From the IMG/VR virus record IMGVR_UViG_3300005264_000022, positions 1 to 64,000 of that record: 64,000 nucleotides of DNA. The stretch is one strand, 5' to 3'. The DNA comes from a virus. Positions 23,356 through 60,795 of this stretch are shown in pieces. The stretch's first letter is position 1, and each line of letters begins with the position of its first letter. The position numbers and the translations under genes were made by a program. The notes under the pieces were generated by a model, which saw only the letters and a list, made by a program, of their open reading frames with translations, was not told the origin of the DNA and did no database searches.

Positions 23356-26300
23356 TTAATGGCAGTGCGAATATCCGCAATCATAACACTGTTGGCAACC
23401 ACCTATTGAAGCTAATTCCCCACCACAATCTGGACATTTTTTACTTTCTATTATAGCAGAAGTCGATTTTGGTTTTGGTTTTGAAACTTCTTTTTTTATA
23501 TTAACACTTTTAAATTCCCCACCCATATTGTCTTGGACAGATATTATAGCATCTATTAAAATATTTGGACAATTAATACCATCAACAGCTCTACCTCTCA
23601 TTCTTGAAGATACACAAGAATTGCAACCTTCTATTCCTTTTACAGATTCTTTTATATCTCTCAAGTCTCCACCCAATCTTAATACTTGAGATATGAGGAT
23701 TGCTTCCCCTGTAATATTTTTAGTACAACCACTTCCCATCTTTGGTATTACATAACAATCTGTAACTCTCGACTCTGATTGTGAATATCCTATCATAACC
23801 TTCATTTCTCCACATCCATGTGTTATCTTTTTGGGTATATAATATGTATCGCTAGGAACTTCAGACATAATACCTCTTTCTAATACAGGATAAGTATCCA
23901 ACTCTTCTTCTTTTATATCATTTAAGACTCCATCGAGTGAACCATCTACATATATGCTCATTGAGGTTACTCCACGCTTCCATGCTTCTATGTACATATC
24001 TTTAATTTCATCACATGACACATCTTCTTTTAAATTTGTAGTATTAGAAGAACACATATCTGTATATTTCTGTATTGATTCTAACATCTTAACTTTAGAT
24101 AAAGGAGATATTTCTCTTGAATCCACACAAGCTTCTATGTCACCACCATTATCAATACATTTTTGTATCTGTGGATGTTTTATTGTAAAAGTATCATATT
24201 CTCCTCTAACTCCATCTTTAGTTACAGACCTAGTATATTCACTTCTAAATACAGGCTCTATCCCTGTAGAATAACCTAACATTGTTGATCCAGTTCCCGA
24301 AGGTGCATGAGCCATTAATGCACAATTTCTTAATCCTTTAATATATTGCAAACCTTTTTCTTCCATTTCTTTTTCCATTGATAAGATGGTTTCCGATTGC
24401 CCTCTTGTTGAACCCATGTATACAGACGCATCTATACAAGCCCCTTGCATTCTCATGGTCAACTCTTTTGTAAATTCAATTGCCTCGTCAGATCCATATT
24501 TCAAGCCTAACGCTATAAGACAATCAGCTAAAGACGTAATTCCTAGCCCCAAATTTCTCCATTCTTTAGCAACAATTCTTTGTTTTTCTAAAGGATTTCT
24601 ATCTATACCTTCATCTAATATAGTATCCATTTCTTGTATTACCTCAAATACATCTTTATAAAAATTCTCATAATCAAATTCTGCTTTCTTAGTAAATGGA
24701 TTTTTAACATAATTACAAGCAACCATAGTGGCTAATAGGCAAGTAGCACCATCTATTCCAACCATCTCATTACATCCATTTTGTGACATATCTGCGGTCA
24801 TTACAGAATTACCGAATAAATGATAATATTTAAACCTATCTACAAATACCAATGCAGGATCAAAAGCTTTCTTAGGAATGTCTATTATGGCATCCATTAT
24901 CTTAACTGTATCTACTGTATGCTCTATAGTTTCTCCTGTATCTTCAACGAAATAGTCCGCCCTATATGATTCTTTGTTTACATAATGTTCCATAAATCTA
25001 TCTGTTACATACATAGAAATATTTGTTGATAATAAATCACCAGTAAACCCTTCATTTTTTTTCTTAATTGCTATAAACTCTAAAGCATCAGGATGTTCTA
25101 CACTTAAAGTCTGTAACAAAGCTCCCCTTCTTCCACTACTTCCTGCCATTGTATTCTCTGTTGCATTGTCGAATATTTTAGCAAAAGGAACTACACCTGC
25201 CGTGGTATTTTCTCCTCTTCCTGCTTTCGCACCTTTTGGTCTAATGTTTGATAAGCACAAACCAACACCTTGTCCTGCTTGATACATCTTCATTAATTCT
25301 GTCTGTGTATCGCCTATTGCCTCTATTGAATCCTTTATGTAAGCTTGTGTGGCACAGTTATGTGTAAGAATATTCCCTTCTAAGCAAAATGATTGGCTTG
25401 ATGGAACTACTGCACAGTAAACAGTTTCTTTGATTCCAGTTCTTTCTACACTTCTTATTTTTTCATTGTGAAATGTATTCTCTTCTGTTTCTATTAGAAT
25501 ATGATTTTTATTTAAAAAGAACCATTTTGGTAAACTTTTAACATCTAAAGTTAATCTGTATAACCTTGATTCTTTTTCTGTTAAATTACTTACCCTCTCA
25601 TGCACTTTTATTTCGTTCGTAGGGACGCCTAAAGATGCTAATATATCGTTCACTATTTCTAAATTTTCTATAACAGTTGAAGTTATAACGGCTCTGTTTT
25701 CACTTAAACACCCATCAGTAGCAAAATATCCAGCCAAGAAACCTAATAAGTACCCTTTAGTTTCTTTTAAAGTTGGTATTTTGTTTATAAAGTTAGGTAG
25801 TCCACTTATTACAGTCTGATCTAATTCTTCATTTTCAGTAATGCTACCAGTATTATTAAAATATTTGACAAATTCTCTTTTATCGCCACAAAGAGTTAGG
25901 TTGTTGTATTTTTTATTGTGACTTCCATCACCAAAAAACATACCGTGAGCTACTCCGAATGTACACATATTCACAACCGATATGTTTCTTCTACCATTGT
26001 GTATCTTTTTCAACAAAGTGCCTTCTCTTAAATCCTTTGTGAATACTTCCTTATAGTGATTGCTGTCTCTAGTTGGTCTTGAGTTCCTAGCGAACCATAT
26101 ATGATCTTCTGTAGCAAATATTTCCTTTCCATTAGTTAAAGTTATTTTCAATAGTTCTTGTACACCAAACTCTTTAGATTCGGCTTTTACAAAAGTTCCT
26201 GTCTTATCCAAAACTTTAAATTCTTTTCCAACGAGCGAATCTATACTTCTTAAACCTTTATCTGTGACTATTCTAGTGTCTTTTCTAAAACAATTAGAAA

Positions 26301-26520
26301 AAGACATTCCGTTGTCTATTCCTCTGTTAGCCATTATCCTTCCACCAAATATAACTTTTTTATCCTTTATTAATTTTTCAATTTCTTTATTTCCTCCGCC
26401 AACTCTATTACAAAATTGATCTACCGCTTCTCCTTTTTGAAAATATTTTTCTGTTGCTATTTTATATCCCAAGTCAGTCTTTCCAACCCATTCATATACA
26501 TCCTGTCTATCCTTTTTCAT
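23356..26520 (-). CDS. nrdJ: class II (B12-dependent type) ribonucleotide reductase with intein
   Basis: 1,054 residues: about 742 of enzyme interrupted by a 312-residue intein at residues 77-388. The extein reads GMSFSN / CATQAY, then QAGQGVGLCLSNIRP, GRRGALLQTLSVEHPD, NGCNEMVGIDGATC, AHAPSGTGSTM and the C-terminal redox tail GGCQQCYDCGYSHCH. The enzyme reduces ribonucleotides to deoxyribonucleotides and, being class II, needs adenosylcobalamin but no oxygen; that suits an anaerobic host. RBS AGGAGG. Same operon as the HNH gene at 26536. Confidence 0.88.
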   Translation of the reverse strand: MKKDRQDVYEWVGKTDLGYKIATEKYFQKGEAVDQFCNRVGGGNKEIEKLIKDKKVIFGGRIMANRGIDNGMSFSNCFRKDTRIVTDKGLRSIDSLVGKEFKVLDKTGTFVKAESKEFGVQELLKITLTNGKEIFATEDHIWFARNSRPTRDSNHYKEVFTKDLREGTLLKKIHNGRRNISVVNMCTFGVAHGMFFGDGSHNKKYNNLTLCGDKREFVKYFNNTGSITENEELDQTVISGLPNFINKIPTLKETKGYLLGFLAGYFATDGCLSENRAVITSTVIENLEIVNDILASLGVPTNEIKVHERVSNLTEKESRLYRLTLDVKSLPKWFFLNKNHILIETEENTFHNEKIRSVERTGIKETVYCAVVPSSQSFCLEGNILTHNCATQAYIKDSIEAIGDTQTELMKMYQAGQGVGLCLSNIRPKGAKAGRGENTTAGVVPFAKIFDNATENTMAGSSGRRGALLQTLSVEHPDALEFIAIKKKNEGFTGDLLSTNISMYVTDRFMEHYVNKESYRADYFVEDTGETIEHTVDTVKIMDAIIDIPKKAFDPALVFVDRFKYYHLFGNSVMTADMSQNGCNEMVGIDGATCLLATMVACNYVKNPFTKKAEFDYENFYKDVFEVIQEMDTILDEGIDRNPLEKQRIVAKEWRNLGLGITSLADCLIALGLKYGSDEAIEFTKELTMRMQGACIDASVYMGSTRGQSETILSMEKEMEEKGLQYIKGLRNCALMAHAPSGTGSTMLGYSTGIEPVFRSEYTRSVTKDGVRGEYDTFTIKHPQIQKCIDNGGDIEACVDSREISPLSKVKMLESIQKYTDMCSSNTTNLKEDVSCDEIKDMYIEAWKRGVTSMSIYVDGSLDGVLNDIKEEELDTYPVLERGIMSEVPSDTYYIPKKITHGCGEMKVMIGYSQSESRVTDCYVIPKMGSGCTKNITGEAILISQVLRLGGDLRDIKESVKGIEGCNSCVSSRMRGRAVDGINCPNILIDAIISVQDNMGGEFKSVNIKKEVSKPKPKSTSAIIESKKCPDCGGELASIGGCQQCYDCGYSHCH
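25357..26292 (-). mobile_element. LAGLIDADG intein inside the ribonucleotide reductase
   Basis: Begins at Cys77 (CFRKDTRIVTDKGLRSIDSL), has block B ending in ATEDHIWFA, two dodecapeptide-like motifs (GVAHGMFFGDGS and LLGFLAGYFATDG), block F around VYCAVVPSSQSFCLEGN and terminates ILTHN before Cys389. All splicing residues (Cys1, terminal His-Asn, +1 Cys) are present, so it should splice. The full-size middle implies an active homing endonuclease. Confidence 0.9.
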
Positions 26521-40740: not shown

Positions 40741-40918
40741 TCAACTCCTCCTTATATAATAAATCTTCGTTTAATTCCCACAATGGACACATCGGCAAAA
40801 TAAAATCCTCTACCCTTTCTCTATTGTTAGTTGCACAATACATAGCTCTAATTTCATTTAATCTTGTATGCTTGCAAGTTGCACAAGCCTCTGTTAGTTC
40901 ATATTCGCCTATTTTCAT
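40727..40918 (-). CDS. small Cys-rich protein
   Basis: 63 residues with ACATCKHTR, YCATNN and MCPLWE: four Cys that could hold a metal. Overlaps both neighbours by 14-20 nt. Unknown. Confidence 0.5.
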   Translation of the reverse strand: MKIGEYELTEACATCKHTRLNEIRAMYCATNNRERVEDFILPMCPLWELNEDLLYKEELNGIN

Positions 40919-41819
40919 TTGATTCCCCTGTTAGTTTTTTAAATTTAAATACATAGTTATATTTTTCTTTTGTTTTTTTTGAAGCTTTCTGTTTTTCTAT
41001 TTCTACATCTAATATATTCCTATCTTTTAAATCCTGTATAGCTTTATTTAATACTCCTATTCCAAATGTTCCCATATTTTTATAATTTACACCAAAAAAA
41101 TCTTTTATATATTCATAACCAATAGGATAAGTTTTTGATTTCCCTTTCCATATACTATATAATTCATATATTCTAACTTGATGTTTTGTTAAATTAAACT
41201 GTTTTCCATATATGTTACAATCAAAGAATATAGATTTACCATCTTTTTCTCCATTTGTAACAATATTATTAAATTCATTTTTGTTTATAGTAATCTTAAA
41301 CACATTTAAAAATATTTCTTTTGCATCAAGTATTAATGTATCTTTTAACCATATTTTTGTCAATAATGAAACAACACTTCTTTTTACAATATTATCCGTT
41401 CCTCCATGTCTATCGCCATATATATATTTATTTATTAAATCTATATCTATTAAAATATTATCACTATTTCCATAATTATAATATTCATTTATTATATAAA
41501 TTCCTACTTTTATCTCCGCTAAAGTAATATCACTATTTCTATTGACAATGCCTTCTTTAGAAAAAGGTATATCATTTTTTCTTATGCGTCTAATACTACC
41601 AAGCCCGTGAGCTTCTCTATGACATTTACTACATAAAGTCATTAAGTCGCTTATATTCTCATTCTCTAAGTTATCATAATTAAGGTGATGTATTTGCAGT
41701 CCCTTTTTCTTACCACACATTTCACATACTGGATTGTGTTGTAACTTTTCTTCACGTTTATTTTGCCAATGTTCTGATTTTAAATATACCTCTCTATACC
41801 ATTTTTGTCTTTTAGTCAT
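40899..41819 (-). CDS. HNH nuclease fused to a Rep_3-like initiator domain
   Basis: 306 residues. Residues 1-80 are an HNH domain (PVCEMCGKKKGLQIHHLNYD, then LMTLCSKCHREAH). From ~95 on, the protein is colinear with its neighbour at 41812: shared blocks include FNLTKHQVRIYELYSIWKGK, IKDFFGVNYKNMG and LNKAIQDLKDRNILDVEIEK. This winged-helix segment resembles the C-terminal half of Rep_3/RepB plasmid initiators (LYELL ... LKxLLGV ... LxxAIKEI). The HNH fusion is absent from the paralogue. Confidence 0.65.
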   Translation of the reverse strand: MTKRQKWYREVYLKSEHWQNKREEKLQHNPVCEMCGKKKGLQIHHLNYDNLENENISDLMTLCSKCHREAHGLGSIRRIRKNDIPFSKEGIVNRNSDITLAEIKVGIYIINEYYNYGNSDNILIDIDLINKYIYGDRHGGTDNIVKRSVVSLLTKIWLKDTLILDAKEIFLNVFKITINKNEFNNIVTNGEKDGKSIFFDCNIYGKQFNLTKHQVRIYELYSIWKGKSKTYPIGYEYIKDFFGVNYKNMGTFGIGVLNKAIQDLKDRNILDVEIEKQKASKKTKEKYNYVFKFKKLTGESNENRRI

Positions 41820-48094: not shown

Positions 48095-48953
48095 AGTTAT
48101 AAGTGATTAGGCACTATAAAGAGGGATACGAAATTTATATACCACCTAGAGATAATATATGGGAAGAACGTTAGGATTTATTCGTGCAATGGGATAGCGT
48201 TCACGATAGAGAGGTTTGGGTATTTTCTATCAAAGCAATAAGTCGAGAACAGCGGACGGGACTACAAACCTCACCGCACATATGGATATTTAGCTCAAAT
48301 GGTAGAGGAGCTGTCGGCACAGGCGGTTAGTTGTGGGTTCAAATCCCATAATATCCAAAACTATTATTAAATAGTGATGTAACTATTAACTATCGGTGCT
48401 AGTAGATCCGATTAATTAAAATAACTCTAAAGGAGTAGAGACTTCCTATATGTAGAATAAAAGTTGACGGCAAAACTGTTACAAGACGCTTGGCTATATG
48501 TCATAAAAGTATCAGTCCGATTATAAGATGTCGGTTAAAATTGAGGTTGCAAACTCAATATCTTTTAGAATTATTCCATATATACTTAGTAGCGAAAGAC
48601 AATCACCTCTCATAGAAGTGTCTCATGTGTCTCCTAGTAATAGGACGGATTGAAAGGTATATCCTTATAAGATGGAGTAAAATAAAAACCAATTCGAAAG
48701 CTCAATCGTTAAGAGCATTAAAAAAGTATGGCTTATGCTTAGGTCGGTAGATTAATTTCTGAAAGTAATTCGAGGTTATAATTGGACGTGCCTTGAATGA
48801 TAAGTATTTTATATGATGACCTCTTAGAGCCAAGAGGTAGCTAATCAAAAGAAGGCTCAATCAGAAGAAAAAGATTTTGTATCAACTTATCATTTATTTG
48901 AAAGGAGGTCAACATTATCTCGGCATCTGCCCTCCGTTATGGGTAGTAAATAT
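48095..48953 (+). ncRNA. large structured non-coding RNA candidate (GOLLD/ROOL-like setting)
   Basis: About 860 nt between a perfect promoter and a tRNA gene with no convincing reading frame on either strand. It is far more GC- and purine-structured than the neighbouring coding DNA and rich in stems: GAGGTTTG/CAAACCTC (48211, 48265), CTATT/AATAG (48361), ATCGG/CCGAT (48393), CTCTA/TAGAG (48425), ATTGAG/CTCAAT (48539), CCTA-GTAA-TAGG with a GNRA loop (48633), CCTCTT/AAGAGG (48820) and GGAGG/CCTCC (48904). Phage position, length and the adjacent tRNA match the giant RNAs called GOLLD and ROOL. That identity is inference; no sequence match could be tested. End and exact start unknown. Confidence 0.6.
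48284..48357 (+). ncRNA. tRNA-like fold inside the large RNA, no usable anticodon arm
   Basis: GGATATT/AATATCC form a 7 bp acceptor, GCTC...GAGC a D-arm with a GGTAGA loop, and GTGGG-TTCAAAT-CCCAT a canonical T-arm. The bases between (CTGTCGGCACAG region) do not make a 5 bp stem with a 7 nt loop. So it is a decayed tRNA or a tRNA-like module. A second cloverleaf-like piece, CCAATT...AATTGG with a GCTC/GAGC arm, lies at 48689-48785. Confidence 0.45.
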
Positions 48954-49028
48954 AATCCGTTGGTGTAATTAGTAGCACGAGATTCTCCAAAAATTTAAGC
49001 GAGGGAGCATAACCTTCACGGATTGCCA
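48954..49028 (+). tRNA. tRNA-Trp (anticodon CCA), CCA end encoded
   Basis: Acceptor AATCCGT/ACGGATT (7 of 7), D-arm GTGT/GCAC, anticodon stem AGATT/AATTT with loop CTCCAAA, T-arm GAGGG/CCTTC, discriminator G and CCA. The T-loop is AGCATAA rather than the usual TTCRANY, so it departs from the canonical form there. It directly follows the structured RNA and is probably cut from the same transcript. Confidence 0.85.
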
Positions 49029-49874: not shown

Positions 49875-49892
49875 AAAATAGGAGATGATGTG

Positions 49893-50180
49893 ATGCAAGA
49901 AGGATTATTGAAATTTGGAGAAGCAATCAAACAAATGAAAATGGGTAAAAAAATAGCTAGAAATGGTTGGAATGGAAAAGAAATGTACGTAGTATATATG
50001 AAAGGGTATCCAAATGGAATAGGAGCTAATAAAAATACAGCAGATGCTTATGGTGTAGAAGAGGGTACTATAATGAAATTTAGACCATATATGCAACTCA
50101 AAACTGCACAAAACGACATAGCTATGTGGAGTCCAAGTGGTTCTGATACATTAGCGGAGGATTGGATAGCGGTGGGATAA
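49893..50180 (+). CDS. tad2: DUF2829 protein, Tad2 family (anti-Thoeris)
   Basis: 95 residues from the ATG at 49893 (AGGAG upstream). The DUF2829 pattern is clear: KFGEAIKQMKMGKKIARNGW, NGKEMYVVYM, FRPYMQLKTAQNDIAMWSP, ending DTLAEDWIAVG. Tad2 proteins with this domain bind the gcADPR signal of Thoeris and block the defence. Function here is by family; some DUF2829 proteins bind other cyclic nucleotides. Followed by a terminator. Confidence 0.82.
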   Translation: MQEGLLKFGEAIKQMKMGKKIARNGWNGKEMYVVYMKGYPNGIGANKNTADAYGVEEGTIMKFRPYMQLKTAQNDIAMWSPSGSDTLAEDWIAVG

Positions 50181-50269: not shown

Positions 50270-50974
50270 ATGAGTAAATTAAAGAGGAGTTTAGCATCAG
50301 AAAGAAAGTATCAAAAGTTTTATTTAGACAAAGAATCGGTACCCGAAAATAATGTAAGTCCAGTTATCATTTACGAGAAACCTAGAAATCCATTGACTAT
50401 AAATAGCTTAATGGGTATAAATTATCAAGCGGTGTCAAAGGAGAAATTAACACACAATGTAATTAATCAATGGCACATAGAAGAGGCTCTTAGAAGAGAA
50501 ATGGCACACGAGAGAATAAGATCTAATATCTTAGCTAGGAGAATGATTGCTAACGGCTTAAACGCCACACTAGAGCTTGATGAGATTAAGGAATATGAAG
50601 AAGGTTTAACTAATGTAATACAAGATGATATTGATATGGTTATGGAAAAAGCTCCTAGAGGTATTCGTGAGGAAATATTAATAAGAGTTAAAAATGAAAT
50701 GGCTAAAGTATCTATTGAAATCAAACAGGATTATGAATATAATTTATTTAGAATTGATACGCAATTAGCATACCTAGATTCATTAATGGCGGATGTTATT
50801 TCTGCACAAGATAGAAGGATTTCATTGAAAGATAAAACATCTATTTTGCAAAGGTTATCTAAAGAGCAAAGAGAGGCTATTAAAATGAAGAAGGAAATAT
50901 TGCAAGATATGGGTGTCAATCTAAAAGAAGTGAGTAATATATGTTGGATTTATCACTGTCTAGGGACGAGATAG
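50270..50974 (+). CDS. terminase small subunit candidate
   Basis: 234 residues from the ATG at 50270 (AAGGAGG, 5-6 nt); the frame opens further up, inside the terminator. Strongly helical (EEALRREMAHERIRSNILAR, DDIDMVMEKAPRGIREEILI). No HTH I can point to. It overlaps the first terL codons by 34 nt; that position is the main argument for TerS. Confidence 0.5.
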   Translation: MSKLKRSLASERKYQKFYLDKESVPENNVSPVIIYEKPRNPLTINSLMGINYQAVSKEKLTHNVINQWHIEEALRREMAHERIRSNILARRMIANGLNATLELDEIKEYEEGLTNVIQDDIDMVMEKAPRGIREEILIRVKNEMAKVSIEIKQDYEYNLFRIDTQLAYLDSLMADVISAQDRRISLKDKTSILQRLSKEQREAIKMKKEILQDMGVNLKEVSNICWIYHCLGTR

Positions 50975-53513
50975 AACAACTTAAATCTATAGAGGTACTA
51001 ATAGAAGAGGTAAAATCTACAGAGGACGCAGATGAGCTTATAAAGACCTTAGCTAGTAAACATAATATAGTTAAATCATATCTGAGTGAACTTAGACTAG
51101 CCAATATGCCAGAAAAAGATGTCAAGTATGTAAAAGATGTCAATGCTAGAGTATGGGGTATCTTAGAACCTATCTATAACCATTTAGTTGTAATGGCTAA
51201 GGAACATATGAATCAATGGTATAAGAGGATTAAGAGAGAGAGTGGGGCTATCGATCCCAAGTTATATGATTATCAAGAAGATTTAGCTAATTTTTTACTA
51301 GAAGCTATAATAAAAAATGAATTAACAGACACGATATATACGTTGGTACTATCAAGGGGTGAATGAGTTGCCCTCCTATATAGAAATATATAGGTAATAA
51401 TTCTGCTTAACCTAGAAATCTAGGGTGTGGTGCTAGTATAGTACTGCTAACGGTTGATAGCTGAAGCTCCTGTCGTGAGACATAGGTATGCCAATCCCGT
51501 GCAAGAAGGTGTTATGAGAGATTTATAACACTGGCGAAGTGTAACGATCAGACGAATATTGAAAGTAACGCATAAGGTTATTAGTAGGTTAGTAGTCGTA
51601 GGTTTAATGCGAAATTCATTATTCCGAAAGAGCAGAGGGCTTAACATTTGAAGATGAAGTCTAAAATATGATCTAGTCCCACTATTAAATTAGTGTTAAA
51701 ATACTACGAAAGTAGGGGTGTCAACGAGTGGAAAAACATATACCTTATCCGTGGTAGGAGCGTTCATCACGTTACATCACGACAGTTATATTTTACACAA
51801 TTCCAACACGGATTTTGTAATGATTATATCAGCACCAACACAAAAACAATTATCGGGATTCTATGATAATATATCAGATTTCATGAGTGTATCAAAATCA
51901 GTAGGTATAATATCAGATAAGAAATCAGAATCCTCTGAATTGAACTTAATTCAGACTAAAGATAATGTAAATGAAACACAATTATCAACCTCTAGTGGTG
52001 CAAGGTTTGCTACTATTTTCTATAGACTAGGAGCAGACTCAATAGAGGGATTACACTGTAATTAAAATAATGGTTACGTAACTTGGTGAACCTATAAATA
52101 TAGGGTGTCATATTAAATATGGCTAACGGTTTCCCCTTCAGTAATGATGATTGCTATGGCGACATAGTGGGATGTAAGCGAGGCTAACTCCATAATGGAT
52201 ATGCGAATACCGTGGATTTACTTATGTAGGTCTGTAACGACTAAAATATATCGTATAGATAAGATATAGAGACTGGTAGGATGAAATGCCTATTGGGTAG
52301 CGTCAAGCAACTCTAGTAGTTGAAGAGATAGTCTAGTCCGACTCTTAAATGAGTGTTGAAGTACAGTGAAAACTGCGGTAGTTCGTTATTAATGGTAGAT
52401 GAAGCCAAGTTTTTGTCGCGTAGAGCGATAACTCAAAATTTATTGCCTATTACAACCACTCGTAGTGGGGTATTCCTTATGCTATCATCTGCGAATGATA
52501 AGTGGTGTGAGTTTCAAGATTACTGCTTTAAAAATAGAGAATTGGATATAATTGATACTGAAGAAAAAGGTAGCAGATTAAGAAGGAAAGGTTCGGATGA
52601 AACTAAGAATTTATATTTCTATGGTAGAAGGCATTATCAAAATCATTGGGAATATATGGTAAAATCAGATCCAAAATACATGATGGCAATATCTACACAT
52701 TTAAATGCAGTAGGAAATAATAGAGAAGACACATCTTTTGCTACACAAAGAGATAACCTATTCTTATCTAAAAAGACATCATCTTTCTTTGATATAAATG
52801 AGCTAGAAGGCATTGGAATATTTCAATATTATAATCCACATACATTTATTAACAACCCTCGTTATGTTATAGTCGGAGGACTTGATATTGCCGTGAGTGG
52901 AGATATTTCGGATTTTACAATCAAAGCTATTGAGAATGGGTATGGAATGGATAGGAAGTCTTATATATTATTTAGAATGGTAATGAACCCGACTAAGTCA
53001 AAACAAGCAGACTCAGTATATAATCAAATGAAATCTGTATTTCAATGGATAAGAGATATGAGAGCAGTTAGATATACTAAATTGCATGAGAAGAATATAT
53101 TCCCTATTGTATTTAATAATAAAAATAGATTTGAGATATTAGAACATTACTATAATAGAATACAGTCGGGATTAGAAATTATGCCTAAAATTCCCGAAGA
53201 GTATAAGGTAGATGAGCAACTTAGAAATATGTATATAAAAAATAAAGACAAGTTTGATGATGAGTCTAACTGGATTAGATTTGTACATGAACACGCTAAA
53301 TTCGGTAGAAATGAAATCAAGGATAATAATGATATGGTTAAGGTAGAATATAGACAAGCTAATGAAAAATATTTACATGACGATGCTATCTTTTCATCGA
53401 GTATTGCCTCATCTTGCCTATTGTACAATCCTAATGTTCATGCTACTGGTCACAAAGCAATCACATCTCAGAGAGGTGTATCAAGATTTAAAAGAAGTTG
53501 GAAGAAGAGGTAA
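50941..53513 (+). CDS. terL: terminase large subunit, split by two group I introns
   Basis: Joined exons 50941-51360, 51718-52057 and 52378-53513 give 631 residues in one frame. Exon 1 ends TLVLSRG; exon 2 starts VSTSGKTYTL, so the splice rebuilds the Walker A GVSTSGKT. Exon 2 ends IEGLHC and exon 3 continues SSLLMVDEAKF, the Walker B. The C-terminal nuclease domain shows VGGLDIAVSGDISDFT and KYLHDDAIFSSSIA. TerL pumps DNA into proheads and cuts concatemers. Unspliced RNA can only give fragments. Ends at a terminator. Confidence 0.88.
51361..51717 (+). ncRNA. group I intron 1 in terL (no ORF)
   Basis: 357 nt. P1: exon end AGGGGU pairs with GCCCU 9 nt into the intron, with the U-G at the splice site. 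Core words shared with intron 2: GGGTGT, GCTAACGGTT, GTAACGA, CTAGTCC, and a terminal GAAA-capped hairpin (CTAC/GTAG) two bases before the 3' splice site after G51717. No endonuclease inside. A boundary 3 nt later (51720) would also keep frame. Confidence 0.8.
52058..52377 (+). ncRNA. group I intron 2 in terL (no ORF)
   Basis: 320 nt. P1: exon end CACU pairs with GGUG downstream with a U-G at the splice site. GTAACGACTAAA and AGATAGTCTAGTCC form P7; the terminal CAGT-GAAA-ACTG hairpin is followed by CG and the 3' splice site after G52377. It splits codon UGU (Cys) after its first base. Sister of intron 1 by sequence. Confidence 0.8.
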
Positions 53514-53586: not shown

Positions 53587-53976
53587 GTGAATAAGAGAGT
53601 GAATATTTATGATGTATTTGATGTAAAAATAAAATATTTTGACCACAAACTTGCAGAATGGAAATTTAGCAATGTGAAAAATGTTTATGACTTTGAATAC
53701 GACAAAGAATTTTGTGACTTAATTATTAAATATATAGCCAATGTAGATATTGGTTCTAATTCTTCTTATATAGTCTCAGAAATAAAAGAGTTAAAGTTTT
53801 CATATGGAATTATGCTTAAAGAACAGTATCGTACTTATAATTTAGAAATCAAAAGTGATACTATGATTTTAACAAGAATGAAAAGGTCTGCCAAGTGTAA
53901 ACGTAAATATGGAAAAAGTAATTCTTTTAAATCTAATTCATATAAAAGAAGAGGAGGTGTTAAAGATAGTAATTAA
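53587..53976 (+). CDS. hypothetical protein ahead of the portal
   Basis: 129 residues; GTG starts at 53587 or 53599 (the second is better spaced from GTGAGG and less close to the likely RNA start). Mixed N-part (IYDVFDVKIKYFDHKLAEWK), very basic C-terminus (KCKRKYGKSNSF, SYKRRGG). First gene of the late capsid operon; unknown role. Confidence 0.55.
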   Translation: MNKRVNIYDVFDVKIKYFDHKLAEWKFSNVKNVYDFEYDKEFCDLIIKYIANVDIGSNSSYIVSEIKELKFSYGIMLKEQYRTYNLEIKSDTMILTRMKRSAKCKRKYGKSNSFKSNSYKRRGGVKDSN

Positions 53977-55378
53977 TGGAGAAAGGTTGAGAGAAAAACC
54001 CATTCACAAACTTATAAAACAAAATAAAGATATGTACAATTCCGACACGAGTAAGAGATATGAAAGGTTTGAAGAAAGATTTGTAGATCCTAAGTTATCA
54101 AAAGAAGAACGTATGCCAATAGATGCTTATTATCCAACACAAGAGTTTCATGACATCATAACTGAATTATCTGCACAAATTCCTGCCGAGTTTAGCTCTA
54201 CTGGTAAAGAGTCAGATTTTCTAAGATTATCTTTAATTGAAGGTTCGCACCTTAAAGAAGTATTGCATAAAGTATACACAGAGAATTTATTAGGTGTAAA
54301 TGCTTATGTATTCCTAAGACCTAAGTTGTCTAGTGATACCAATAAGTTTGTAGTATTTGATATGGATATAATTCCTGCGGAGAATGTGTGGGTAGAATAT
54401 GATATATTTACAGATGAGATTAAAAAAATAACAACACAAGAAAGAAGAATTACATATATAAATGGCGATGAAGAAATTAAGTATCTTTACACTAGAGTAT
54501 ATACTAAGGAAACAATAGAAACTTTCTTTAGACATACAACTGGTGAGAGGATAGCAGAAATGGTAGACAAGAAAGAGGATAATCCTTTTGCTACATATAA
54601 TATGTTGCCGATTGTTGAGTTCAAAGGATATAGTGAAAACGAATATCCACTAGCTAGTAAATTAGTTGAACCACAATTACAATTAGACAATCTCAATACA
54701 AATGTTGAAAATTTAATCAATATGCACTCAAACCCAGTATATGTAATAGAGAATACTATGAGAGATTGGAGCGATGCTACATTTGGAGCAGGAGAGGTTG
54801 TTGGACTAGAAGGAGAAGAGAAATTCAAACCTACTAGTGCAGATATGCAACTACCGTCTTTAGATAACCATAGAAATTATAAAAGAGATGAAATGTATAA
54901 AACTGGAGGATTAACAACTCCATCACTAAGAGAGAAGATGTTTGGAACAGACTCATCTAAAGTAACTAAAGTAGCATCTGCCGAATTTGTAGCAACTGCT
55001 AGAATAATCACTGCCTTTGCAAAAAGGTCATTAAATAGAATAGCAAAGTTATTATTAGAATTAAATGGGAAGCAAATGACTAACGAATCACTTATTCCGC
55101 CTATTGAAGTACTACCATACGATTTAGAAACAGTATTTAATATGTCTGCGGTAGGATTGAATTTAGGATTGATAGATGATAATTGGATTTGGAGTAGATA
55201 TATGCCAGAGCTATCAGATGAAGAAAAAGATAAAATAAGAGAGTTCTTCGAGTCTAGGCAAGATTTAGATGTTGGGGAAACTAATGTATCTAATGTAGCA
55301 AAACAGAATAAGCCTATGGGAAACAAAGAACAGGCAAATACTAGTAAGGAGGAGCGAGATGGAAAAGTTGCAAAATAA
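53966..55378 (+). CDS. portal protein
   Basis: About 470 residues. KLIKQNKDMYNSDTSKRYER, then IPAENVWVEYDIFTDEIKKI, LVEPQLQLDNLNTNVENLIN and SLREKMFGTDSSKVTKVASA give the portal pattern (SPP1/gp6-type). The start is uncertain: AGGAGG at 53952 is 8 nt from an in-frame ATA (53966); a TTG at 53987 has GGAG 5 nt upstream; an ATG at 53909 has no ribosome-binding site. The portal forms the DNA channel and neck of the head. Confidence 0.75.
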   Translation: MVINGERLREKPIHKLIKQNKDMYNSDTSKRYERFEERFVDPKLSKEERMPIDAYYPTQEFHDIITELSAQIPAEFSSTGKESDFLRLSLIEGSHLKEVLHKVYTENLLGVNAYVFLRPKLSSDTNKFVVFDMDIIPAENVWVEYDIFTDEIKKITTQERRITYINGDEEIKYLYTRVYTKETIETFFRHTTGERIAEMVDKKEDNPFATYNMLPIVEFKGYSENEYPLASKLVEPQLQLDNLNTNVENLINMHSNPVYVIENTMRDWSDATFGAGEVVGLEGEEKFKPTSADMQLPSLDNHRNYKRDEMYKTGGLTTPSLREKMFGTDSSKVTKVASAEFVATARIITAFAKRSLNRIAKLLLELNGKQMTNESLIPPIEVLPYDLETVFNMSAVGLNLGLIDDNWIWSRYMPELSDEEKDKIREFFESRQDLDVGETNVSNVAKQNKPMGNKEQANTSKEERDGKVAK

Positions 55379-56417: not shown

Positions 56418-57485
56418 ATGGCATTTAAATATAGCTTATCACATAGAGTATTAGAAGATTTAACTAAAGATGCTCCAGTGATGGAACAACTAGGAATGGC
56501 AACATTTAATGACTTACAGGCGTGGTTTGACGCTTTAGGTTTATTTGAAAGAATAGATGTAATGATGATTGCGATAAACAATCTTGAAACATTAGATCCG
56601 TTATTTTCAATGATTACAAGAAGGGGTACAGATGCTACTCATGTAGAAATGTATTCAAGAGCAAGTTTCAAAAAAGGTGCTTGGGACACAATGGGAAAAG
56701 GTTCTAAACCAGTCTTGCAAGAGTTCACAATCCCTTATGATGACTATGACTGTGCAATTGAAGTTGACAGAAAAATGTTCAAGAAAAATAAGGAAGTTAT
56801 TGTAGATATGATTATATCTAACGTATATGACGCTTATAAAAGAATTTTAAGAGGTATAGCATTAGATTCATTAATGACATTACCAACTGCCGAATCTAAG
56901 CACATTCCTTCATTTTGGAGAGATAGTTCAGGATATGCAGTGGCAGAAAGACTAGTTCCGTATGCAAATGGATTAAAAACATTCACAAATGCCGAAACTC
57001 ATTATATGGGAAAATCTGCAATGGATGACCAAATTGTAAAAGAGATTACTAAAAAAGTAAGATCTAAAGGTTACGGAAGAAATGGATTAGTTGTAGTAGC
57101 TAATGAAAACACATGGTCTGATTTTGAAGATCAATTTACATATGATGAAGTTAGAAAGAATGAGTTAGTGGAAGTGTCGGGTGACTTTGCTCCTAGACTT
57201 GGAACAACTACTTATGTAACTCTTCCAGAAACAGACTTTCCAAATGGTTATGTGCTCTGTTTCGACCCTACGGTTTCATTCTTATACCACAAAGAGGCAG
57301 AACAATCTGATATGCAAGGTCTTATCAGAGAGTTTGACAACTTTGAAGCAATTAGAACAAATAATAGAGCAGAATTTATGATCTATGAAACAGGTATGGG
57401 AGTAGTTGAAAAAGGTGCAGGTGCGGTAATGTACATCGGTAATGCAACTTATCAAAACCCAAACTTATCAACATTACTAAGCTAA
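56418..57485 (+). CDS. major capsid protein
   Basis: 355 residues, HK97-like size. RVLEDLTKDAPVMEQLGMAT at the N-terminus, then TIPYDDYDCAIEVDRKMFKK, RNGLVVVANENTWSDFEDQF and RNEAR-like late block TNNRAEFMIYETG. AAGGAGG start. Forms the icosahedral shell. Confidence 0.75.
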   Translation: MAFKYSLSHRVLEDLTKDAPVMEQLGMATFNDLQAWFDALGLFERIDVMMIAINNLETLDPLFSMITRRGTDATHVEMYSRASFKKGAWDTMGKGSKPVLQEFTIPYDDYDCAIEVDRKMFKKNKEVIVDMIISNVYDAYKRILRGIALDSLMTLPTAESKHIPSFWRDSSGYAVAERLVPYANGLKTFTNAETHYMGKSAMDDQIVKEITKKVRSKGYGRNGLVVVANENTWSDFEDQFTYDEVRKNELVEVSGDFAPRLGTTTYVTLPETDFPNGYVLCFDPTVSFLYHKEAEQSDMQGLIREFDNFEAIRTNNRAEFMIYETGMGVVEKGAGAVMYIGNATYQNPNLSTLLS

Positions 57486-58262: not shown

Positions 58263-58487
58263 TTGGCTAGAACTGTTGAAGAAATACAATTAAATATTGA
58301 AGAAGTGAAGATAGCAATAGCCTCTCCAATACAAAGTATTAGAATTGATGATATGCAAAGGACTTTTAAAGGCTCTAGTGAGTTGATAGAGGCACTTAGG
58401 ATGTTGGAACGTGAATTAGTAGAGCTAGAAACTGGTAGTAAGCCTAGAAAGTTCTATACAGCTAAGAGACGTGGGTATAATGGCTAA
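58263..58487 (+). CDS. gpW-like head-tail joining protein candidate
   Basis: 74 residues; TTG start behind AGGAGG. MARTVEEIQLNIEEVKIAI, then TFKGSSELIEALRMLERELV and the basic tail KFYTAKRRGYNG follow the gpW layout (helix, two short strands, helix, RRGY end). Would close the neck of the head. Confidence 0.5.
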   Translation: MARTVEEIQLNIEEVKIAIASPIQSIRIDDMQRTFKGSSELIEALRMLERELVELETGSKPRKFYTAKRRGYNG

Positions 58488-58923
58488 TGTTACAGTTAAA
58501 ATAACGGATGATCAAACTAAACTAAATGAATTATTAGCTATGAATGGAACTAATATTGAAATAGCGGTTGGATTATTTAGCGAATCAGACCCCGAAGCTA
58601 CATTGAAAGGTCAATATAACGAGCAACACACTCCTAGTCCAAGTAAAACTATAGTTCCAAAAAGACCGTTTATAGAACCTACTTATATAGCTAACGAGAA
58701 GTGGTTAATAAGAATGGTGAAATTTGAATTAAAGAAGGGGAAACATCCTCACATATTCTTAACTCACCTTATGGAGCAAATGGTTATGAAGGTTAAACAT
58801 AGAATAAATATGGGACACTTTAAAAAGTTAGCTCCATCTACTATCAAAAAGAAAGGTCATAATTTGCCATTGAAGGACACTATGCAAATGTATAACGCTA
58901 TTAAGTCTAGGAGGATAAAATGA
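58480..58923 (+). CDS. head-tail connector / tail completion protein
   Basis: 147 residues from ATG 58480. The segment TIVPKRPFIEPTYIANEKWL (a PxRPFl-type motif) followed by a helix, and LAPSTIKKKGHNLPLKDTMQ near the end, match the phage virion morphogenesis/gpG-gp10-like family (KRPFL ... APxTxxRKG ... LxDTGxL). Connects head to tail. Confidence 0.65.
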   Translation: MANVTVKITDDQTKLNELLAMNGTNIEIAVGLFSESDPEATLKGQYNEQHTPSPSKTIVPKRPFIEPTYIANEKWLIRMVKFELKKGKHPHIFLTHLMEQMVMKVKHRINMGHFKKLAPSTIKKKGHNLPLKDTMQMYNAIKSRRIK

Positions 58924-59805: not shown

Positions 59806-60795
59806 ATGGCGGAAATAATCAAGATAAATTTTGAAGATAGGACTACACCTATTACTCAGGCTGGGTTAAATAAGATATTAGTTTTCACAAAGGAAAAGGC
59901 GGTGGCTTATATGGAGGGCGATGAGATTGCAACATTTAGTGGGTTAACTTCATCAGATGAGGCTTATAAGTCTATCTCAGCTATATTATCACAAACAAGT
60001 CAAACGGTGGCATTATATGGAGACTTAGAAACATTAGATGTAGAGGCTTCACTAACAACAGTTGGTGGAAGAGATTTCTTCTTCATAGTTCCAGTAGGAT
60101 TTGATACGGCAGAGTTGACGTCAATCTCAACATGGTGTGCTTCAAATGATAGAATGATGATATGTACACCAGCATATGACACATCAGTAGCTAATATTAT
60201 AGCATTAGGAACTGCTATGGCTAGTGAAAACTCTGGGATATTTGCTCATATAGGAACTCCCGAATCTGCACAAGTGTATTTAGCAAGTGGAATTTGTGGG
60301 TTATTAGCTCCAAAAGATCCCGGATCTGCAACATGGGCTTTAAAAACACCTAATACTATAACAGTAAATGAATATGCTCCTGCCGATGAAACATTATTAT
60401 TAGCGGATAATATTAATATATTTACTGAAGAATATGGTAGAGGTATTACACAAGATGGTACTGCAACTAATGGCTCATACTTAGATATAACTAGAGCTAA
60501 ATATTGGTTAAGATATAGATTGCAAGAAGAATTAGCATTATTGTTTATGAATAGAGATAAAGTTCCATTTACAGTAGTAGGGCAAACGCTAATAAAAAAT
60601 GCAATCCAAAAGGTGATAAATGTAGCAGACAGAATGGGGATATTGGTAGAAGAAAAAACTGCTGTATTAGTTCCCGACCCCGATGTGTTATTAACAAATG
60701 ATAAAGCTAATAGAGTATGGAATGGAATAGAAATTGAGACTACTGTACAGGGAGCTGTCCATAGTATCAGTTTGAAAATAATCCTTTCAGTATAA
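59806..60795 (+). CDS. tail sheath protein (DUF3383-like)
   Basis: 329 residues. AEIIKINFEDRTTPITQAGL, a Rossmann-like middle (DFFFIVPVGFDTAELTSIST), then SYLDITRAKYWLRYRLQEEL and a C-terminal IKNAIQKVINVADRMGILVE with TVQGAVHSISLKI: the DUF3383 sheath pattern. Makes the contractile sheath, so the phage is a myovirus. Confidence 0.78.
   Translation: MAEIIKINFEDRTTPITQAGLNKILVFTKEKAVAYMEGDEIATFSGLTSSDEAYKSISAILSQTSQTVALYGDLETLDVEASLTTVGGRDFFFIVPVGFDTAELTSISTWCASNDRMMICTPAYDTSVANIIALGTAMASENSGIFAHIGTPESAQVYLASGICGLLAPKDPGSATWALKTPNTITVNEYAPADETLLLADNINIFTEEYGRGITQDGTATNGSYLDITRAKYWLRYRLQEELALLFMNRDKVPFTVVGQTLIKNAIQKVINVADRMGILVEEKTAVLVPDPDVLLTNDKANRVWNGIEIETTVQGAVHSISLKIILSV

Follow-up and report, generated by a model that had tools for sequence, protein, structure and literature searches.

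The gene for the terminase large subunit (terL) is interrupted by several group I introns in more than one group of phages. Bacillus phage Moonbeam carries multiple group I introns in terL (PMC4299906). Introns occur in 5 of 52 terL genes of the Bastillevirinae, some of which hold two or three, and were spliced in infected cells (PMC11878797). The terL genes of Jug phages are divided into two to three fragments by group I introns, with splicing supported by metatranscriptome data (PMC12363816).

The window analysed here comprises bases 1-64000 of virus record IMGVR_UViG_3300005264_000022 (68,790 bases in total). On its + strand, three successive reading frames spanning 50941-53513 make up one terL gene in three pieces (Table 1). 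The initial annotation of this DNA proposed two insertions, neither with an ORF, and this was borne out. It also regarded two related introns in one terL as unusual, a view that the published Moonbeam, Bastillevirinae and Jug phage genes contradict. The locus resembles those of Moonbeam, SIOphi and other Bastillevirinae, where group I introns, two or three in number, divide terL. The Jug phages, with genomes of 360-402 kb, are likened to it by description.

Table 1 Features of the terL locus in the window.
Feature	Position	Strand	Description
terL exon 1	50941..51360	+	140 codons, ends LVLSRG; 84% DNA identity to L002
Group I intron 1	51361..51726	+	366 nt, ORF-less, SRG^SGKT in Walker A, phase 0
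Intron 1 P3, 5' strand CUGCU	51444..51448	+	pairs with AGCAG 51631-51635; read from sequence
Intron 1 P4, 5' strand ACGG	51450..51453	+	pairs with CCGU 51497-51500; P4 covaries across the family
Intron 1 P7, 5' strand GAUCA	51546..51550	+	pairs with UGAUC 51669-51673; double compensatory change
terL exon 2	51727..52062	+	112 codons, SGKT ... GLHCN
Group I intron 2	52063..52385	+	323 nt, ORF-less, GLHCN^LLMVDEA just before Walker B, phase 0
Intron 2 P4, 5' strand ACGGU	52126..52130	+	pairs with ACCGU 52209-52213; read from sequence
Intron 2 P7, 5' strand GACUA	52239..52243	+	pairs with UAGUC 52329-52333
terL exon 3	52386..53513	+	LLMVDEA ... end, stop included

Related introns lie in herellevirus terL genes; among the closest known are the terL introns of phages EF24C, iF6 and Ef2.3 (Enterococcus) and Bromius and Semele (Lactobacillus). 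In SIOphi and Ef2.3 the annotation shows terL as four pieces. The Enterococcus phage terL introns are 81-84% identical to the last 60-70 nt of intron 2, and intron 2 also matched, more weakly, DNA from the terL region of each of SIOphi, Moonbeam and Bromius, for SIOphi and Moonbeam with its 3' part. The Semele terL region shares 24 bases with intron 1, which also has, close to its 3' end, a 57-nt stretch with 86% identity to the recA intron of Staphylococcus phage MSA6 (I-MsaII); the latter lies in another gene and has an endonuclease ORF, whereas intron 1 has none. Some Moonbeam terL introns likewise contain endonuclease genes, unlike those in the window. In iF6, SIOphi and Bromius terL is broken at KSRQLGL, in the same P-loop as intron 1 but a few codons further on (SRQLGL^, compared with SRG^SGKT here), and none of the breaks read in the Enterococcus or Lactobacillus phage terL genes falls directly ahead of Walker B. 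We considered whether the insertion site was that of the Enterococcus terL introns and rejected this, as the sites differ. Moonbeam, SIOphi and the Bastillevirinae also have other TerL sequences and, where read, other insertion codons. A literature search found no paper that mentions Walker A together with a terminase and a group I intron. Multi-intron terL is thus already known; new here are the lineage and these insertion codons, which we do not claim to be unpublished.

Exon junctions and the spliced protein

The initial annotation joined 50941-51360, 51718-52057 and 52378-53513. This correctly gave one open frame, of 631 residues, but the joints were misplaced: with corrected junctions the spliced TerL has 627 residues and carries LVLSRGSGKT and GLHCNLLMVDEA. 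The intron 1 junction was settled by a relative, IMGVR_UViG_3300036466_000234 (L002; 63,439 bases), in which the intron 1 site is empty and LVLSRGSGKT reads through (AGT AGA GGA AGT GGA AAA for SRGSGK). Because joining 51360 to 51727 gives the LVLSRGSGKT of L002 exactly, intron 1 ends at 51726 and not, as first drawn, at 51717. Since L002 reads LVLSRG-SGKT, with no VST, the GVSTSGKT originally given as Walker A includes three intron codons, and the motif is SRGSGKT. If this joint is shifted by one base, the U-G is lost or else the intron no longer ends in G. The alignment to an intron-less homologue suggested with the initial annotation is thus available at this site, where L002 is continuous.

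P1 to P10 are the standard names for the helices of group I introns. Intron 2 was first placed at 52058-52377, with its 5' site after TGT, where P1 showed no readable U-G. Moving the site five bases downstream, so that it follows GTAAT, gives the P1 GUAAU^UA/UGGUUAC with U-G at the site. The corrected 3' end, ..UUCG, agrees with related introns, which read ..ACG or ..UCG/..UUCG before the exon where readable. On these two grounds the intron was moved to the position in Table 1. A 5' site after AAT and the reading frame also suit intron 2 of L002, whose TerL frame has 650 residues. LLMVDEA is unbroken in the spliced frame (GLHCN-LLMVDEA), as originally reported, and follows Walker A in the expected order.

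Without splicing, translation would end after a single codon of intron 1 (SRGE*), and intron 2 begins with a stop codon. Between the window and L002, with dS above 1, dN/dS was 0.031 in exon 1 and 0.041 in exon 2; in exon 3 it was 0.043 before and 0.056 after a gap described below. Purifying selection is thus strong in every exon, and what it conserves is a protein that only splicing would produce. The proposal that TerL depends on splicing thus gains indirect support, because the unspliced frames stop and the exons are constrained (dN/dS 0.03-0.06).

By sequence, identification of the product as a terminase is modest. The corrected protein matched the PHROG 'terminase large subunit' at E = 6.4e-4, and L002 TerL matched PHROG terminase at E 3.4e-4 and 1.9e-3; the earlier joint gave no Pfam family at E<=1 and nothing from PHROG at E<=0.01. 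Searching phages by tblastn returned no TerL relative at 1e-5 with the earlier joint, and two weak matches (E 0.1-0.3), one an annotated terminase, with L002 TerL. No TerL relative was found in genome_contigs and no match to TerL among solved structures, and a predicted structure of the exon 3 product (L002 as first row, the window as second) had a pLDDT of 28.9, too low to be of use. In viral_contigs the TerL query found L002 as the sole locus (again as L003), besides a cut piece of 69 residues, L004, which ends inside terL exon 1. A query with 56418-57482 returned the L002 contig again together with L006 and L007, both of which begin too late for terL by match position (L006 starts before the gene matching 56418-57485 of the window), and a query with 53909-55375 found no related contig. 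L004 and L006 both come from metagenome 3300036940 and might be parts of a single virus broken near terL.

Downstream of terL, 58471-58923 encodes a neck protein and 59806-60795 a tail sheath. Closely upstream, on the + strand, is a gene for a Tad2-like (Thoeris anti-defence) protein (49890-50177; E 6.9e-24). The + strand also has, at 48283-49028, a row of tRNA-Cys, the Rfam '6A RNA' (RF02925, 46.7 bits, cut-off 41.2) and tRNA-Trp. Two further genes lie on the - strand: that for ribonucleotide reductase (23359-26520) has an intein splicing domain (E 2.6e-8) with LAGLIDADG, a third splicing element, and 40902-41819 encodes an HNH endonuclease (E 3.7e-5), possibly a free-standing homing enzyme.

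Group I core of the two introns

In intron 1, P1 pairs 51356-51362 with 51368-51374 (7 bp), sets U51360 opposite G at the splice site and is present in the minimum-energy fold. In intron 2, P1 pairs 52058-52064 with 52071-52077, with U52062-G, and is present in the centroid and absent from the minimum-energy fold. The proposed U-G at both 5' splice sites was therefore found, for intron 2 at the corrected site, as was the proposed GAAA-capped hairpin right before the 3' end of each intron. The terminal base is G in both (51726, 52385). P10 was weak by eye.

We examined the core across related introns. Among the matches listed, the P2 word occurred at 128 places (126 in loci and two in the window); a P7 word lay within 420 nt at 26 of these, of which 22 were taken and 18 left after repeat removal. 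Fourteen of these 18 introns, together with the two from the window, formed a 16-row alignment of ORF-less introns that omits L031, L083, L084 and L105, whose inserts are longer. Over a 30-pair structure, 90.7% of cells were paired, and both partners varied in 17 of the pairs. Covariation scored 0.404 versus a shuffled mean of 0.134, a value that 0 of 500 shuffles reached, and slid partners scored at most 0.173. P2, P2.1, P3, P4, P6 and P7 were paired in 93-100%; the 53.8% for P8 stems partly from the MAFFT alignment being out of register in the P8 columns, as it also is slightly for P3 of intron 1. P7 was GACUA/UAGUC in 15 of 16 rows and GAUCA/UGAUC in intron 1, with two compensated pairs.

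A search with the Rfam group I model, suggested as a check on the original claim, did not confirm it: RF00028 scored 22.7 and 17.0 bits, below the gathering score of 50, and the second match was poorly aligned. As a control, RF00028 was run on the records of five phages whose annotation includes introns or split genes, namely EF24C, iF6, Ef2.3, MSA6 and S2G3; it gave three matches, the best at 36.6 bits and none over 50. The scores below cut-off thus look like a limit of the model, which one report terms incomplete (PMC11878797). Fold energies relative to shuffles gave z -2.69 for intron 1 and -0.28 for intron 2, so that fold energy, being no better than in shuffles, lends intron 2 no support. 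The putative group I assignment rests on structure, namely P1, the terminal G and the covarying core. Taken together, L002 (for intron 1), covariation and exon conservation back the original placing of group I introns at the Walker A codons of TerL and just before Walker B.

Origin of the introns and alternative readings

Intron 2 occupies the same site in L002 (4616-6003; 1,388 nt), where it contains a GIY-YIG ORF (Pfam 22.2 of 22.6 bits; PHROG E 5.8e-7) that by alignment sits in the P8 loop. At L002:4930-5050 a frameshift parts the start codon of this ORF from the GIY motif, which could be decay, error or frameshifting. No homing endonuclease ORF was found in either window intron. Homing introns favour conserved codons, and we infer spread by endonuclease homing. 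Just upstream of intron 1, the exon departs from L002 at 7 of 12 bases with the residues unchanged, a divergence matched by 10 of 1860 12-base windows in terL. In this comparison of two sequences, the pattern would fit exon co-conversion during homing or later adaptation of the guide (P1). Intron 1 itself may have been gained in the window lineage or lost in the L002 lineage.

The two introns had been taken for sisters, duplicates of each other. They do share core words, as noted at the outset: GCUAACGGUU, AACCUA.AAAU.UAGGGUGU and CUAGUCC.ACU.UUAAAU.AGUGUU are common to both, and the P9-region word occurs exactly twice in the 64 kb, where shuffles expect none. These words are nevertheless family signatures, the P2 word being present at no fewer than 120 exact places in viral_contigs and the P9 word in 8 stretches. 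The exons upstream of family introns stem, by eye, from varied phage genes. Core identity between introns 1 and 2 was 52.8% over 214 shared columns, rank 118 of 120 pairs, for which the median was 62%. In a 22-row tree (the 18 family introns, L008, intron 2 of L002 and the two window introns), intron 2 joined its L002 counterpart, to which it is 81% identical, with support of 100/95; a tree pairing introns 1 and 2 exclusively was rejected (AU p = 0.0024). Duplication or transposition inside this terL is thus very improbable. Since a clade of intron 1 with both copies of intron 2 survives the test (p 0.084), an older common source is possible. The record held no family copies beyond these two, only three single-word matches with 3-4 mismatches. 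Introns 1 and 2 appear to be separate arrivals, intron 2 probably older than the split from L002. At L073:4195, the frame upstream of a family intron ends in ISRGLDWG plus a few residues and resembles a TerL nuclease motif.

We consider it highly probable (about 0.92) that this terL holds two ORF-less, probably self-splicing, separately arrived group I introns of a widespread IA-like phage family. The empty intron 1 site, the shared intron 2 site, the conserved core and an open frame under purifying selection are features of the sequences themselves. After transcription, each intron would fold on its P3-P8 and P4-P6 cores; exogenous guanosine would cut after U51360 and U52062, and the exons would then join while the introns leave with their terminal G, yielding a TerL of 627 residues in which both Walker motifs are unbroken. 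We infer this chemistry, and that it proceeds without helpers. Intron 2 would already have been present in the common ancestor with L002, the copy there now having a homing-endonuclease ORF.

Insertions that are not introns, in a broken pseudogene or an assembly chimera, might account for the weak Rfam scores. Against this speak the precisely empty site in L002, the covariation, the purifying selection acting on each of the three exons and the shared position of intron 2 in another contig, and we give it hardly any credence. Less remote, though still unlikely, is that the introns are real but the gene copy is dead, so that splicing no longer matters. Relative to L002, the window TerL lacks 24 residues (IYGVSAIAIDETGVGKSAGDYLIE, including DETGVGK), an in-frame 72-nt gap between 53054 and 53055; we take the missing segment to be a probable TerL nuclease motif (motif II). 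A tblastn search for these residues in the rest of the record gave nothing convincing (best E 0.079). The gap may reflect a genuine deletion or faulty assembly, and the terL copy accordingly defective or mis-assembled. Against a dead gene, the frame is retained, and selection past the gap looks normal, with dN/dS near that of the rest of the gene.

A further reading treats the introns as a regulated switch, in which splicing or skipping of exon 2 sets the timing or amount of ATPase-competent TerL. The initial annotation had suggested that splicing could hold TerL back until late infection. Because both introns are in phase 0 and exon 2 has 112 codons, skipping it would keep the frame, dropping SGKT through N252 and leaving 515 residues. 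Exon skipping between two introns is reported in SIOphi (PMC11878797), for the terminase in the Results of that paper and for the polymerase in its Discussion. L002, however, manages without intron 1, and selfish homing by itself predicts introns at conserved motifs. No regulatory role would need to be invoked, and we judge a switch improbable; its more specific form, in which a 515-residue TerL without the P-loop is made and the splicing choice tunes ATPase-competent against ATPase-dead subunits, is slightly more doubtful still.

As two probably separately arrived group I introns, these insertions extend multi-intron terL genes to another, little-known phage lineage, in which annotation pipelines may split and overlook TerL. 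The two relatives form a natural comparison, since one has intron 1 and the other lacks it, while intron 2 contains an endonuclease ORF in just one of them; this makes gain, co-conversion and endonuclease loss testable.
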